This document shows positions 30,411-44,503 of a DNA stretch of 64,000 bases, piece after piece. Every line of letters begins with the position of its first letter. Position 1 is the stretch's first letter. The DNA is from Chaetoderma sp. LZ-2023a. Its lineage: Eukaryota; Mollusca; Caudofoveata; Chaetodermatida; Chaetodermatidae. The DNA lies in assembly GCA_034401795.1 (NCBI GenBank), contig CM067371.1:83889306-83953305 (forward strand). The letters run 5' to 3'. The notes below the pieces were generated by a model. That model ran no database searches. It was given only the letters and a program-made list of their open reading frames with translations, and was not told the origin of the DNA. The translations under genes and the position numbers were made by a program.

Positions 30411-31698
30411 TCACACCTCTGCTGCAAAATTTCCCCACTGAGTCTGGGTCCCGCAACTCATGGTGGTTGGTCATGGTGGATGAACTATTAATGCTGAGAT
30501 GCGTTCATTATCACTGGCACTTTCGGAAATGTCTGAAGTGATGATGGCGGGAATATGAACATCTATAATGGCTCTCACAGTTTCTGCGGGTGCTAGAATG
30601 TTTGTCAGTAAAGCAGCGGTGGTGCTAGTGGGTGTCGGGGTGGTCAATGCTGCGGTCTTCGTGATGGTCGTGCTGGCTGTGGTGGTTGCCGTGGCGATGG
30701 CGGTGAGTTGAATTGTAGGCTGAGACAATGATGCAGGAGCGGATACGGCAGGTGATGACATCTTCCGAGACTTGGCGTACTTCAAGAGACGATTTGCAGT
30801 AACATTGGGCATGGGCTGAATGTCCTGCGTGTGAGCAATACGTCTTTTCCGGTCGTTCCGGCATAGTTCCCTTCCTTATGGCTGGATCAGAAAGACTGGG
30901 ATGAGGATGCAGGATGACACGGGTTGGAGTAATGCTAATGGACGCAGGCTGCGACGGCCCCGGTCCCTCATCTATGGTCAGGTCAGGAGGAGATGGTGAC
31001 TGCGGGTAACTTGGAATCTCCATCTCTGTAGGTGTCATGATAACTACCGATATCAGCTCACTGGCTGAGATCGCTTCGGACACTACGGGTGCAGATGTAG
31101 TGGCTGCAGTTTTGTGGCTGGTTACTGATGCGGGTGCTGCCAGACTGGATTGGGCGGAGGATTTATGCTTCTTGCTCCTCTTCAGTACCAGTGTAGATGT
31201 GGTGACTGGAAGTGGCATAGTGCTCCCCGACGTGGCTGCGGGTAGGATTTCATGTCTTGCTGCCGGTATGTTGCCCAAGGTAGCCGCGGGAGGACGATGA
31301 CTAACGGGATGTCTATGGGTAGTATTCTTCGTGCGGGCCATCTTCTCAGTCGGGAGAATTTTAACTGGAAACCGAGATTCAAAACGCGTGGCTAAAACGG
31401 CATGATCCTCGTTTTCTTCCCCTGGAAATAATGTCACTTCTAACACACGGTGATGATGATGGAGCGCATGGGTCACTCCGTAGCGGGTAGTGGTATAGAG
31501 ATACTGACACATCACGCAGAAGGCTGTCTGGAGGAGATGATCCTTGTTAACATGAAGTGTGCAGTCGGACTTTCTCGTAAAAGTTCTGGTACAGGGTTCT
31601 CCGTTCGCTAATAACGAGCTGCATGGGAATCTTTTTGAATCTGGTACTGATTCTTCTTCAGACGAATCCGACAACGCTAAATCTTCGAGGAATGACAT
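30411..31698 (-). pseudogene. Accessory two-C2H2-finger protein gene (copy B)
   Basis: From the ATG at 31,698, an acidic Ser-rich N-terminus (residues 1-22) is followed by a C2H2 finger with unusual spacing (C-x9-C-x12-H-x4-H, about residues 26-55). A second finger follows (C-x2-C-x12-H-x3-H, about 62-81), then a conserved block (LATRFESRFPV; EKMARTK) and a long Ser/Thr/Pro/Ala-rich tail. The first frame runs 357 codons to 30,625. A one-base shift near 30,840 moves the homologous reading to the frame ending at 30,471, where a TGA interrupts it. The conserved end CGTQTQWGNFAAEV stops at 30,411. The sister gene at 42,980-44,270 shares the fingers, middle block and end. The layout suggests a nuclear nucleic-acid-binding regulator, but function is inferred. 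It resembles no Gag, Env or Pol domain. Confidence 0.7.
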
Positions 31699-31911
31699 CT
31701 CGTTCCCGCATGATAGTTGGCTGCGGGAACCTTATTTAAAACCTAAAGCCCTATCTCTTCATTTTTAACTTTTCAGGCCAAGTATTGTTATAATGAACTA
31801 ATAATAAGAACAGCAGAATTTAGTTTTAGACACGAAAGAAGCCTAATGCTATTTGTTCTTCCCTGGTGTCGAGTTTTGAGGGGAAGACGAAGTTTCAGAG
31901 CGTGTTTCCTC

Positions 31912-31935
31912 CTTTTATACTATTTGGTGATGTCA
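31912..31935 (-). promoter_or_regulatory. Internal promoter of the zinc-finger gene
   Basis: On the minus strand: CRE-like TGATGTCA at 31,928-31,935, 8 bp, then TATAAAAGGAGG (TATA box 31,919-31,912), about 215 bp upstream of the ATG at 31,698. A further CRE-like TGACATCA lies at 32,264-32,271. The sister copy has the same arrangement with a perfect CRE (44,496-44,503). Both resemble the LTR promoter (TATAAAAGGAG, 7 bp from the CRE). Confidence 0.75.
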
Positions 31936-31939
31936 TAGA

Positions 31940-32676
31940 CGGCGGATGACTACACCTGGAAGTTTTGACAGGTGATTCGGTTAGCCCTATATGGAAAGTT
32001 TCTCCTTTTTCCATTCTGATCGTCACTGGATTAAGTCTTCCCATGTAAAGGGAGTACTTTTAATTATAAGAGAAAAGGCTCACTAACTTAGTCTTATTTT
32101 AGCGCATTTAAAGTTTTCCGATCAACATAACGACAGGGTACCACTTATTCCCGCGGAGCATCACCTTTTAATTAGAGTGAGGCGGTTTTACAGATTGGAT
32201 GCTTATAAACTTGCCTATTTTAATTTTAGGATGAAGCGCCTGATTGGGTGTGTGGGAGCCTGGTGACATCAGCGGTAATTACCCTGACTCACCCTCACCA
32301 CTCCCCCATCACGCTGTGGTAGTTGCGTATTTGGGCGGCTCTTTGGTTTAAAGCGTTTGATCCAATTTACTGGAAATAGTAGTAAAAGTCACGTGGCCCT
32401 TGGAAACACGTGGTTGATCGGAAACATATATGCTATTTACGGCGATGGCCGAGATACTATTGCTGAGGTGTAGTCTTTTGTAGATGCGAGATATGGAAAT
32501 ATATATATGTTATACCAAGATTTCGTTTTATAATAATGTCCCTATTTGCACGGGTTCTTACACATGCATCTTATAGTTGTCTGTAAAGGTAGTTCTCAGC
32601 CCGTGTTGGTTATGGACTGGAACGCAGAGAAGAGAATTTTTGAAATTCTCCTTGTAATTATACTGTTAGATTTTTT
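31940..32676 (-). other. Upstream region of the zinc-finger gene
   Basis: Noncoding sequence conserved with 44,505-45,240 (for example CATCACGCTGTGGTAG, GTTGATCGGAAAC and CTTATAAACTTGCCT). In the sister copy it lies between pol and the gene. It ends where the truncated 5' LTR begins at 32,677. Confidence 0.6.
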
Positions 32677-42017: not shown

Positions 42018-42030
42018 CCACCCGCTCCTT
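42018..42030 (-). promoter_or_regulatory. Polypurine tract next to LTR copy D
   Basis: The minus strand reads AAGGAGCGGGTGG directly before TGTAGC, matching the tract beside copy B. Confidence 0.75.
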
Positions 42031-42979
42031 GTTTGACACCCGTGACAAACGATCAACGCTTTGCGGATCGAACACACGGGAGCACGCTGGGCAGGAATTA
42101 TAGACTTCCTGAGTAGGCATGCAGCCGAGGGGAGTAGTGATGTGGAAGACGTGTATCTCTAATATATAAGAGAAGAGCACATAGTGGTGCGAAAGAGTTT
42201 GGGAGAGAGACATACGTTTAGTTTTCATTTTGAGCTGGAATTATTTTTCCAGGCCTTTTCTTTTTTTTGTTTTGTTTTATTATGTGATGTGTGCTGTATC
42301 TGTATTTATTACCATGATTAGGCTAACCAATAGCTCGCATGGTCGTTCTCTTGGGGGCAAATAATTATTTTTCTGCCGAGAATGCCCAAGATCCAACGTA
42401 ACTCAATAATTTATAAGATAAACAAAAATAAAAGAAAAGTATATATATATATATATATATATATATATATAAAGATATGTATATAGTAATAACACAGTGT
42501 TGTATAGTTACACATGCATACCGGATATATGTGGGTATGCATGCAGTGCGGTCCGTTTGGCGGGTCCACACGGATAGCTCTCGCTATCCACAATCCGTCC
42601 CGACGTATCCACAATCCGTCCCAACATACTAATGCGGGAAGAAAAATAATAAGAAAAATATTATATAATAATACGGTAAAATGAGTAGTTTATCAGGCAG
42701 CCCCAGCATAGCTGGGACGGCATGACGAGAATATGACATATTCGCTACAGGGTGTTGTGTACCTACGTCGCACATGACACAGGTATCCAGTGATTATTTG
42801 TGTGAGACATAGCTACGCAAGAATATTTGTGCAGCCATGTAGGATGACAATAGTCAGCCTAGGGACTGGGTTTCAATTATAAAAACATATATAATAATAA
42901 GAAGAATATTTCAAAAATAAAATGTTCACTCTTCCGCACATCTACATATAAATTCTGCTGCAACCATGATATAGTGTCC
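42031..42979 (-). other. Region between zinc-finger gene and PPT (copy D)
   Basis: Noncoding, homologous to 29,449-30,410, including GGAATTATTTTTCCAGG and CCCCAGCATAGCTGGG. A short TA tract lies at 42,440-42,471. Confidence 0.55.
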
Positions 42980-44270
42980 TTAGACGTCTGCTGAAAAATT
43001 TCCCCAGCGAGTTTGGGTTCCACAACTTGTGATGGTCGGATGTGGTGGGTGGACCGCTGCTGCCGAAATATCACTATCTACAATGTCCAGGTCGGTAATG
43101 CTAAAACTGGAGGAAGGTGGTGAGGTGTCCATAGATGCGCTAGTGGTGGTGGTGATGACGGATGCGGTACTGACTGGTGGTGGTGTGGAGACTGCGGTCA
43201 TAGCTGCTGTCGTGGAGGTCGTGTTGGTGGTACGTGCTGCAGGCTGGCGGAGTGTTGTGAACATCATGAGCAGTCGCAGTGTGGTCACTGCTGCTGTGTT
43301 TGCGGATAACTTCCAGATTTTAACTGCTTTCAATAACTTGCTGGAGGTCGTCCTAGGAACTGCATGGATGTCCAAAGGCTGATGTGCTATTCTTCGTTTC
43401 CCTGAGTGCGGACGATCTGGTGTAGTTATCTTACGGATTGCTGGATCTGCTGACATACTGGTGATGTGTGTAGGTGCCGGAGTGCTGGTCTGTGGTGCGG
43501 TGGTGATGATGACGGCTTCCGTAAGGTGAATCTCATCATCTATAATTAAACTGCACGGAGATATGGATCTATCTGAAATGTCCTGTAAACCAAGTGTTGA
43601 AGTTCAGAAATTGTCACCGGCGTAGAGATCTCAACTGAAATGGGTTGGCCGATTATGGATGCTGATGCGGATGTGGTGATGATGCTGCATGTGGTTGGTG
43701 GTGTCACTGCAGGTGCTGCCGGTGCGGAAATCACAGTTGGTGTTGATAACGATGTTGTGAATGCTGCCGGTACTGGACATGCTGGTGCTGCTGATGCCAT
43801 GCTGAGAGATGCTGAAATGCCACTCGTAGAAGGCTGTGTTGCTGATGCTGTTGGCCTAATGTAATGCGAAATGTCAGTTTGTTGCTGCTTAGTACGTTTG
43901 GTCTTCGCCATCTTTCCCATTGGTAACACGGTAACTGGTAAGCAGCTCTCAAAACGTGTGGTGAGAATATCCACGTCTTCACTTTGTTCACCAGGAGTTA
44001 TTGTTGCTACTAACACATAATGTTTGAAATTTAACACGTGTATACACCGTACTGCGTAGCTGAATATAGGTACTTGCAGCCCGCACAAAAGGCACATTGT
44101 AGAAGATGATCATGACTAACATGAAGTATCAAGTCCGAATTTCTGGAGATGGCACGCTTACAAGGCTGTCCATTAGGCTGTAACGTGCTACATGGATGCC
44201 TCTTCCCTGAATGAGCTGGTGCTGACTCCTCCGAGCTGTCGGCCAAGGAGAGATCTTCCGCAAGTGACAT
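42980..44270 (-). pseudogene. Accessory two-C2H2-finger protein gene (copy D)
   Basis: Homologous to 30,411-31,698. From the ATG at 44,270: an acidic start (SLAEDLSLADSSEES), the same C-x9-C-x12-H-x4-H finger, and a second finger beginning CAGCKYLYSATQYG. A frameshift near 44,040 moves the reading to the frame 43,546-44,097 (LTTRFESCLPVTVLP; GKMAKTK). After a stop at 43,546, a third frame (42,980-43,456) carries the Ser/Thr/Ala-rich tail and the conserved end CGTQTRWGNFSADV. Finger ligands and both termini are the same in two diverged copies while the tail varies, which suggests past selection on the fingers and ends. It lies between pol and the 3' LTR, the position of env or accessory genes in retroviruses. 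Confidence 0.7.
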
Positions 44271-44479
44271 CTTATTTCCGCATGATGATAAAGTGTGGAA
44301 CCGCTTAACCTAATCTAAATCCCTACCTCTTCATAACTTTTCCCGGCCAATAATAGATAATAATAAAATAATAAGAAGGAACAGCAGAATGTGGTTTGCG
44401 ACACAAAAGTAGCCTAATGCTCGATCTTCCCTTGTGTCGAGTTTGACGGGAAGATGAAGTTTCAGTGTGCTCTTTCCTC

Positions 44480-44503
44480 CTTTTATACATTTTGGTGACG
44501 TCA
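44480..44503 (-). promoter_or_regulatory. Internal promoter of the zinc-finger gene (copy D)
   Basis: On the minus strand: perfect CRE TGACGTCA at 44,503-44,496, 8 bp, then TATAAAAGGAGG (TATA box 44,487-44,480), about 210 bp upstream of the ATG. A second perfect CRE is at 44,839-44,832. Confidence 0.78.

Follow-up and report, generated by a model that had tools for sequence, protein, structure and literature searches.

Two gene copies and their LTRs

The window, a stretch of 64,000 nucleotides from Chaetoderma sp. LZ-2023a analysed at its full length, holds two copies of a zinc-finger-like gene, both on the minus strand and where the original prediction had placed them. Copy 1 (30411..31698) is broken: its main frame covers 30625-31698 and the later part lies in another frame, with a frame change near 30850 and a stop near 30471. 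Copy 2 (42980..44270) is also broken, in three frame pieces separated near 44040 and 43560. The conserved ends that had been claimed are common to both, namely a start MS-x-x-EDL and a C-terminal GTQTxWGNFxAxV. Two fingers had been claimed for each copy; the first, C-x9-C-x12-H-x4-H, is indeed present in both, but the second (C-x2-C-x12-H-x5-H in copy 1) is continuous in copy 1 only, a frame break splitting that of copy 2.

Copy 1 lies between two LTRs, all of its features being on the minus strand. The 3' LTR (LTR B, 25875..29436, TG...CA) is preceded by a polypurine tract (29437..29448), and the 5' LTR (LTR C, 32677..35811) lacks its last ~192 bp. The two LTRs are 93.8% identical, with the target-site duplication TAAC before LTR C (35812..35815) and after LTR B (25871..25874). 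A conserved noncoding region (31699..32676) lies upstream of the gene. Contrary to what had been expected, this copy is not adjacent to pol, as gag, pol and the end of the 5' LTR are missing. At the junction at 32677, LTR C ends and sequence matching copy 2 from 45238 starts; this fits a deletion, since the last part of the LTR is absent. An origin of copy 1 from retroprocessed spliced RNA was rejected because, as judged by eye, the sequence retained at the junction reaches the candidate acceptor AG and continues beyond it.

Copy 2 retains a broken pol and a 3' LTR, again on the minus strand. The fragmented pol (45887..49645) comprises the protease side, RT (with a YIDD recognised by eye), RNase H, H2C2, the integrase core and a p58-type C end. 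With Pfam, the window pol matched the Gypsy-type domains RT_RNaseH_2 (6.7e-31) and rve (1.4e-08), and Integrase_p58_C at 1.8e-05, below the family cut-off; the best RT/RNase H match among those listed was 50% identical. The 3' LTR of copy 2 (LTR D, 38721..42017) belongs to a diverged subfamily and is preceded by a polypurine tract (42018..42029). A further LTR of the same family (LTR A, 12922..16570) lies on the plus strand, with CREs at 13351-13358 and 13466-13473 and a TATA box at 13481-13491. Within the window, we found neither a partner of LTR A nor gag, and inspection of the list of open frames showed no env-like frame.

Element structure, selection and the predicted protein

The host genome (2.44 Gb) contains many more copies. 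First-look searches for the gene gave 15,751 and 5,231 candidates in two diverged types, hereafter called the copy-1 and copy-2 types, and the gene is thus not a captured host exon unique to the two loci. Upstream of it, protease, RT, RNase H and integrase were found in this order in all four stretches fetched, although one RT piece was not found in L031. A gag-type CCHC knuckle and a protease motif were found upstream of pol in L033 (gag in one of the two loci looked at). Of the 29 other copy-1-type loci, 27 have upstream sequence that extends beyond the copy-2 position 45238 (the exceptions are L015 and L028, and L013 passes it by 62 bases only), and 18 contain the start of an LTR in the downstream flank. 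At one locus, L071, the LTR is followed by two bases and then by a TGGCGCCCGA-type primer site. The element reads gag, protease, RT, RNase H, integrase, zinc-finger-like gene, polypurine tract, LTR. The pol stretches and the downstream LTR starts bear out the prediction that a gypsy-type element carries an accessory gene after pol and before its 3' LTR, and in our best explanation this gene is the third one in a family of Ty3/Gypsy LTR retrotransposons with ~3.6-kb LTRs. The LTR ends TG..CA (TGTAG..CTACA), the primer site of L071, the polypurine tract and the 4-bp duplication agree with Ty3/Gypsy elements, whose duplications measure 4-6 bp. Troyka, a group of animal Gypsy-like LTR elements, has LTRs of 100-400 bp, CG..CG ends and a 3-bp duplication according to the available part of its description (PMC12440569); membership was rejected on account of the LTR length, ends and duplication seen here.

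The gene is under purifying selection. For the copy-1 type, dN/dS was computed on the 13 of 30 loci, including copy 1 of the window, that have an ATG and 270 or more codons in an open frame. It amounted to 0.43 for the fingers and 0.51 for the tail (0.45 and 0.50 with 8 loci), a weak contrast that leaves fingers and tail under nearly equal constraint in this type. For the copy-2 type, six loci were picked for frames listed as long and stop-free (15 pairs); dN/dS was 0.13 over the fingers, 0.83 over residues 127-215, a part of the tail, and 0.29 over all. A dN/dS near 1 over the fingers, which would have spoken against the prediction, was thus observed in neither type. When 8 of the 13 copy-1-type loci were compared with the 6 copy-2-type loci (48 pairs), finger identity was 0.64, 0.76 and 0.30 at codon positions 1, 2 and 3, and dS was undefined (saturated) in 47 pairs. 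Position 3 was the fastest-changing in 25 of 29 copies, with a bias in the codon-position ratio of the order indicated by one noncoding control, which gave 0.72 instead of the expected 1.

We considered the possibility that the gene is a functionless passenger, a host exon carried along by the element. Capture of host genes by retroelements does occur, neither window copy is intact and no flawless locus was seen among those read: frames of 421-439 codons exist in the genome, and in the small part of the candidates that was read none was of full length with both fingers and the common C end. Yet purifying selection, the rapid change of position 3 and the candidates, which number thousands and form two diverged types, all oppose this explanation, which we rejected on the selection and codon-position evidence and regard as very improbable.

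The intact protein would have about 430 residues. Its N end is acidic and is followed by two C2H2-like fingers, the conserved basic stretch KMA(R/K)TK, a Ser/Thr/Pro-rich tail and the conserved C end. Counting the window copies, the pattern of finger 1 is kept in 26/30 loci of each type, and that of finger 2 in 24/30 and 22/30. The majority residues of finger 1 are the same in both types (R, S, D and L at what we take to be helix positions -1, 2, 3 and 6), which would look like a retained binding specificity. Pfam recognised no zinc finger in any protein piece scanned; for five further pieces, the threshold was relaxed to E = 10, and the matches, all weak and short, were to a mucin-like family and to domains of unknown function, with no finger family among them. 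No relative with a solved structure was found and the AlphaFold model was poor (mean pLDDT 42.9). For these reasons we term the protein C2H2-like only, the apparent fingers being assigned from ligand spacing and conservation. A search of 5.8 billion protein sequences, which took candidates of similar length sharing exact words (one round scored the 7,995 best), yielded one relative, P0001 (JGI), 72% identical over 244 aa and encoded on a contig of 11,982 bases. No relative was found in viral_contigs, scanned with the protein, a pol piece, the promoter pattern and a two-sequence alignment, nor in a scan of genome_contigs.

CRE/TATA regions of the LTRs and of the gene

In the window, TGACGTCA occurs 7 times, against 0.91 expected. 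The predicted LTR arrangement, a CRE 7 bp from the TATA box, was recovered as TGACGTCA-N7-TATAAAAGGAG three times with up to 3 mismatches (0.04 expected), in LTRs A, B and C with 0, 1 and 0 mismatches, respectively (35245-35270, minus strand, in LTR C). In LTRs A and C, another TGACGTCA lies 115-121 bp upstream of this one, at 13351 and 35384. In LTR D, next to copy 2, TGACATCA is present but the TATA box has been lost, TATAAAAGGAG being absent. The form with 8 bp, predicted for the internal sites, was found there twice, with 1 and 0 mismatches (0.01 expected). In copy 2, TGACGTCA-N8-TATAAAAGGAG lies at 44477..44503 and a distal CRE at 44832..44839, both on the minus strand. In copy 1, also on the minus strand, TATAAAAGGAG is at 31909..31919, the proximal CRE at 31928..31935 and the distal CRE 336 bp further up, at 32264..32271. 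The letters originally given for the proximal CRE, TGATGTCA, are those of the plus strand and have to be corrected to TGACATCA in the gene sense.

Genome-wide, exact matches numbered 4,952 for the LTR spacing (CRE-7bp-TATAAAAGGAG), 1,675 for the internal spacing (CRE-8bp-TATAAAAGGAG) and 9 for 10 bp, counted as pattern matches irrespective of their surroundings; controls with the reversed pattern gave 0 for all three spacings. Between the two types, 650 upstream columns gave an identity of 0.696 and the 79 columns of codon position 3 one of 0.319, after omission of 6/30 and 5/30 loci whose upstream parts were rearranged or missing. The proximal CRE-like site is present in 26/29 and 23/29 other copies. 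Of the 29 other copy-1-type loci, 14 have the exact TATAAAAGG and 20 a TATA-like site, and where a TATA was found, most loci have it ~220 bp ahead of the ATG. This conservation and the genomic counts support the prediction of an internal CRE/TATA region resembling that of the LTR; from sequence and conservation, it is well supported that the accessory gene is conserved and has a promoter-like region of its own.

Apart from the CRE and TATAAAAGGAG, no word of at least 9 bases is common to the two internal regions and the U3 parts of LTR A and LTR C. No separate protein site can therefore be named, and a long duplication of the LTR was ruled out as the source of the internal promoter.

We also asked whether the mRNA of the gene might be spliced from the LTR transcript, the conserved upstream block being an enhancer or an RNA element rather than a promoter. 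ORF3s of rotifer LTR elements are typically expressed from spliced messages, according to the available part of PMC5408684, and in the present element an inverted repeat directly follows the presumed internal start. The abundance of the 8-bp spacing as compared with 10 bp and the steady distance of the TATA from the ATG argue against splicing, which we consider improbable.

Proposed function and relation to known systems

Starting from the observed gene, its position, the selection on it and the conservation of both promoter cores, we propose that the element encodes a nuclear DNA-binding regulator, made from an internal CRE/TATA promoter, that adjusts the element's own promoters. The CRE/TATA promoter in the long LTR would drive the genomic RNA, and a second one, after pol, would give a shorter mRNA encoding the finger protein. 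The latter, most likely a nuclear DNA-binding regulator, would tune the output of these promoters jointly with CREB/ATF-type factors that the host supplies to the CREs. Taken as a whole, this is our leading explanation, held with slightly less than even confidence. Its parts are that the internal region probably starts transcription, that the fingers probably bind zinc and DNA, and that the protein is presumably nuclear and acts on the element's promoters. Two fingers are few, however, for a specific DNA site. Also against this explanation are the lack of a Pfam zinc finger in the scanned pieces, the small difference in constraint between fingers and tail in the copy-1 type, the bias seen in the noncoding control, the lack of a common site besides CRE and TATA, the exact TATAAAAGG and the TATA-like site being kept in no more than 14 and 20 of 29 copy-1-type loci, and the loss of the TATA box in LTR D.

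The protein might instead be a chromatin factor that blocks silencing or guides integration and does not switch two promoters. The acidic N end, the fingers and the KMA(R/K)TK stretch, which we liken to the start of histone H3, would suit such a role, but this motif is internal and was judged by eye alone, and Pfam recognised no chromatin domain in the scanned pieces. We find this role unlikely.

Encoding one's own transcription factor and having an internal promoter for it is considered characteristic of complex retroviruses. As the gene and the element have look-alike start switches, the element may govern its own expression in much the same way. A CRE near the LTR TATA box is also known from the HTLV-type promoter (Tax/CREB), Tax being made from a spliced mRNA; here, no relative of Tax is present. 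In foamy viruses, the activator Bel1/Tas, of the acidic class, binds elements in both the LTR and the internal promoter, as stated in the available part of PMC517496. The likeness lies in the two promoters, the second of which is putative here and based on sequence and conservation, and in an activator of the acidic class. Foamy viruses are Retroviridae, whereas in the present element no env was seen and binding of the regulator to both promoters is only proposed. To our knowledge, Tas is not a C2H2 protein. It is possible, though we hold it with some doubt, that the element is a Gypsy counterpart of the foamy-virus circuit, in which its own C2H2-like factor, made from an internal promoter, switches the internal and LTR promoters, having evolved apart from Retroviridae and being present in thousands of copies in one genome.

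The plan had been thought undescribed. In kind this holds only in part, since plant gypsy elements with a post-pol accessory gene and its own promoter are known, as is the regulator of Cer1. Gene23 of maize Grande (Ty3/Gypsy) likewise lies between pol and the 3' LTR, has its own promoter and encodes a nuclear protein (available parts of PMC7264820 and PMC11963269). It is antisense and no similarity is described for it there, while the present gene is sense, has two C2H2-like fingers and shares a promoter core with the LTR. Third genes after pol that are not envelopes also occur in animals, as the ORF3s of bdelloid rotifer LTR elements; these are other proteins (esterase, exonuclease, membrane and env-like types), and 'zinc finger' is absent from the main text as available (PMC5408684). 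CERV, encoded by the C. elegans LTR retrotransposon Cer1, regulates the element's own expression. Unlike the C2H2-like gene with its promoter-like region, it is described, in the available part of PMC10309623, as made from a spliced mRNA, acting in RNA export and having a putative C4 finger.

As CERV is required for export of the genomic RNA (same source), the present protein might also act on RNA, as a Rev- or CERV-like export or packaging factor binding a structured region between the gene and the polypurine tract. A hairpin is kept there in both window copies (30112-30136 and 42697-42721; z -4.97 and -3.43), as is a short, weakly stable stem with two compensatory pairs (29509-29528 and 42092-42111; z -1.47 and -1.42). 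Rfam gave no match at gathering scores. This comparison involves two sequences, 3' hairpins of LTR elements can serve packaging or reverse transcription without this protein, and such a factor would not need a private promoter; an RNA role thus seems to us rather unlikely.

In summary, a Gypsy lineage with thousands of candidate copies carries a conserved gene on its sense strand that shows finger spacing, is under purifying selection and has an LTR-matching promoter core. Thousands of CRE/TATA promoter-like sites are dispersed across the host genome. The many old and young genomic copies allow the co-evolution of fingers and promoters to be read directly. If the proposed mechanism is true, two-promoter self-regulation arose in Metaviridae too.

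Place of the gene within the element

The window (C13:83889306-83953305, in a genome of 2.44 Gb and 2,753 contigs, presumably that of an animal to judge by its element types) contains a family of LTR elements with LTR ends TGTAG..CTACA (TGTAA at the start of LTR B). LTR A lies at 12922-16570 (+), B at 25875-29436 (-), C, which is shortened, at 32677-35811 (-), and D, which is diverged, at 38721-42017 (-); uncut LTRs measure 3.3-3.65 kb. LTRs C and B share 93.8% identity (K2P 0.065); the identity of each is about 88% with A and about 62% with D. Gene copy 1 (30411..31698, -) is flanked by C and B, a polypurine tract precedes B, and TAAC stands on both outer sides, in front of C and behind B, a 4-bp agreement in fixed register expected by chance once in 256. 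Gene copy 2 (42980..44270, -) has LTR D downstream, with a polypurine tract in front of it. Within U5, LTRs A and C carry long (TA)n arrays at roughly matching places (14531-14625 and 34117-34248).

A broken pol lies upstream of copy 2 in the same sense, from 49645 to 45887. Pfam recognised its RNase H and integrase core and matched a p58-type C end below cut-off; a reverse transcriptase (RT) with YIDD and an H2C2 stretch were read by eye. Near 49.8 kb, an (AT)n stretch and a Tc1-like element truncate copy 2 on its 5' side. Copy 1 is without gag and pol: LTR C ends at 32677 and is followed by sequence matching copy 2 from 45238. This deletion is absent from 27 of the 29 other loci of the copy-1 type (the subfamily named after this copy), since their match to the copy-2 side extends past 45238, in L013 for 62 bases only. 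As to the exceptions, L015 has LTR sequence at that point and the match of L028 ends before it.

The original prediction placed an accessory gene between pol and the 3' LTR, and other copies bear this out. Protease, RT, RNase H, H2C2, integrase and C-end pieces of pol were found upstream of the gene in all four stretches taken from other copies; the pieces, searched separately, lie in this order and on the same strand as the gene. One RT piece was absent from L031 in this search. Of the two loci looked at farther upstream, L033 shows a CCHC knuckle of gag type together with the protease motif TVDTGAS, and a search of L034 for the CCHC pattern found none. In L071, upstream of the gene copy of locus L030, an LTR is followed by two bases and then by TGGCGCCCGATGTGGG, a primer-binding site (PBS) that resembles the tRNA-Lys type. 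An LTR start lies inside the fetched downstream flank in 18 of the 29 other copy-1-type loci. Taken together, these pieces give a composite plan LTR-PBS-gag-pol-gene-PPT-LTR, assembled from parts of several copies.

Several further features were noted. L031 and L032 have about 0.9 kb of additional sequence at the same place within RT, and about 0.75-0.9 kb, absent from window copy 2, separates pol and gene in all four upstream stretches. Both copies have, in their 3' noncoding region, a strong RNA hairpin (30112-30136, z -4.97; 42697-42721, z -3.43; both -) and a second, weakly stable stem with two compensatory pairs (29509-29528 and 42092-42111). Two inverted Tc1-like transposons (49799-51581 and 56934-58729) are 97% identical and about 5.4 kb apart. 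The genes at 52400-64000 look like those of a Maverick/Polinton or adintovirus-type element; a weak integrase-core match, below cut-off, lies among them at 55952-56479.

Selection on the gene and its protein

Over 229 codons, the window copies are 66, 72 and 37% identical at codon positions 1, 2 and 3, with dN 0.39 and dS 2.54 by LWL85 (undefined by NG86). When the 29 other copy-1-type loci were compared with the window copy, the rate of change at position 3 was 1.56 times that at positions 1 and 2, and position 3 was the fastest in 25 of them. Noncoding controls gave ratios of 0.97 and 0.72, the latter showing bias because all 29 comparisons have one sequence in common.

The proposed dN/dS check of fingers versus tail put the fingers below 1 in both types. 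Within the copy-2 type (15 pairs, 6 loci), values were 0.13 for the fingers, 0.11 for the acidic start, 0.18 for residues 85-126 and 216-300, 0.32 for 301-431 and 0.83 for 127-215. Within the copy-1 type, dN/dS was 0.40 overall (13 open copies, 78 pairs), 0.43 for the fingers, 0.51 for residues 127-215 and 0.21 for 216-262, in copies selected for being open, which lowers the value, and with young copies contributing neutral change. Between types, residues 127-215 gave 0.75; finger dS was saturated in 47 of 48 pairs, and dN was 0.33 in the single pair with both defined. The contrast of conserved fingers with a partly drifting tail is clear among copies of the copy-2 type and when the two types are compared, and barely visible within the copy-1 type.

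Open frames from ATG reach 431 (L018), 421 (L023) and 434 codons (L029) in the copy-1 type, and 433 and 439 codons (L065, L066) in the copy-2 type. No copy was flawless among the loci read in both types. In finger 1, L018 lacks the first Cys; L065 lacks a His of finger 2, and L029 is without that finger. The C end is missing from L029, L030 and L066, and in part from L023. Window copies included, 26 of 30 loci of each type have an intact finger 1, and 24 of 30 (copy-1 type) and 22 of 30 (copy-2 type) an intact finger 2. In the finger 1 helix, the majority residues R(-1), S(2), D(3) and L(6) are the same in both types. We call the protein "C2H2-like" because Pfam recognised no finger family in the pieces scanned. 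Both types also share a KMA(R/K)TK(x)T stretch (residues 119-126; 31321-31344, -), which to our eye resembles the histone H3 N end and may serve as a basic nuclear signal or as a mimic.

The sole relative found in 5.8 billion proteins, among similar-length candidates sharing exact words (7,995 best scored), was P0001, from a JGI contig. It is identical to copy 1 at 54/63 finger residues, 50/89 of residues 127-215 and 35/44 of 216-262. When matches of 200 residues or more to the 60 fetched gene loci are considered, the highest is 75.5% over 241, so P0001 comes from another subfamily or species.

CRE/TATA promoter-like regions

In line with the original description, the CRE lies 7 bp from TATAAAAGGAG in LTRs A-C and 8 bp from it upstream of both window genes. 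Exact CRE/TATA matches in the genome number 4,952 at 7 bp (the LTR form), 1,675 at 8 bp (the internal form) and 9 at 10 bp; reversed-pattern controls gave 0 for all three genome-wide. On contig C1, where both site listings overlap (to 48.5 Mb), 5 of 24 internal-form sites, read by eye, are followed on their own strand, after 2.4-3.7 kb, by an exact LTR-form site, at the position expected of the 3' LTR promoter. In the LTR promoter search of this genome, 16 of the 40 scored matches (of 2,121 first-look candidates) tie at 190 bits and 93%, and may reflect a recent burst within a single LTR subfamily.

Upstream of the gene, the 29 other copy-1-type loci have a proximal CRE-like site in 26, a distal one in 24, a TATA-like box in 20, proximal CRE plus TATA-like box in 19 and exact TATAAAAGG in 14. 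For the 29 other copy-2-type loci, the counts are 23 proximal, 19 distal and 21 with TATA. Between types, identity is 0.696 over 650 upstream columns, compared with 0.685 at codon position 1, 0.747 at position 2 and 0.319 at position 3; this noncoding DNA is under constraint. The best blocks are a stretch past the presumed start (-181), a TTATAAGC-TCCAA block (-510) and the TATA box (-222); the CRE block, a CpG site, ranks lower (0.86). Directly after the presumed internal start is an inverted repeat, TCTTCCC..GGGAAGA (31857-31887 and 44424-44455, -), with stability z -1.15 in copy 1 and -4.35 in copy 2.

Known systems and proposed working

Accessory genes after pol are already known in LTR elements; gene23 of maize Grande has its own promoter and encodes a nuclear protein (PMC7264820; PMC11963269), but is antisense, unlike the zinc-finger-like gene, which has the same sense as pol. 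Export of genomic RNA requires CERV in Cer1 (PMC10309623), and foamy virus Tas binds elements in both LTR and internal promoters (PMC517496). Rotifer ORF3s are of various kinds, and "zinc finger" is absent from the main text of that source (PMC5408684). Among the matches listed for open-licence PMC papers (titles and abstract starts), none showed a C2H2 gene downstream of pol in an animal Gypsy element. The element may already be catalogued in Repbase.

The gene, its place, the selection on it and the conserved promoter cores are shown by the sequences. That it is a functional accessory gene we regard as nearly certain, and a promoter of its own as very probable. The chance that its protein regulates transcription is close to even, and action on both promoters is less likely than not. 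In such a scheme, transcription would start at the internal region, and the protein would enter the nucleus, bind zinc and DNA through its fingers and feed back on the promoters. The CRE is a host CREB/ATF-type site; the simplest view is therefore that host factors would act on the CREs and the element's protein would be their partner or antagonist, in activation or repression.
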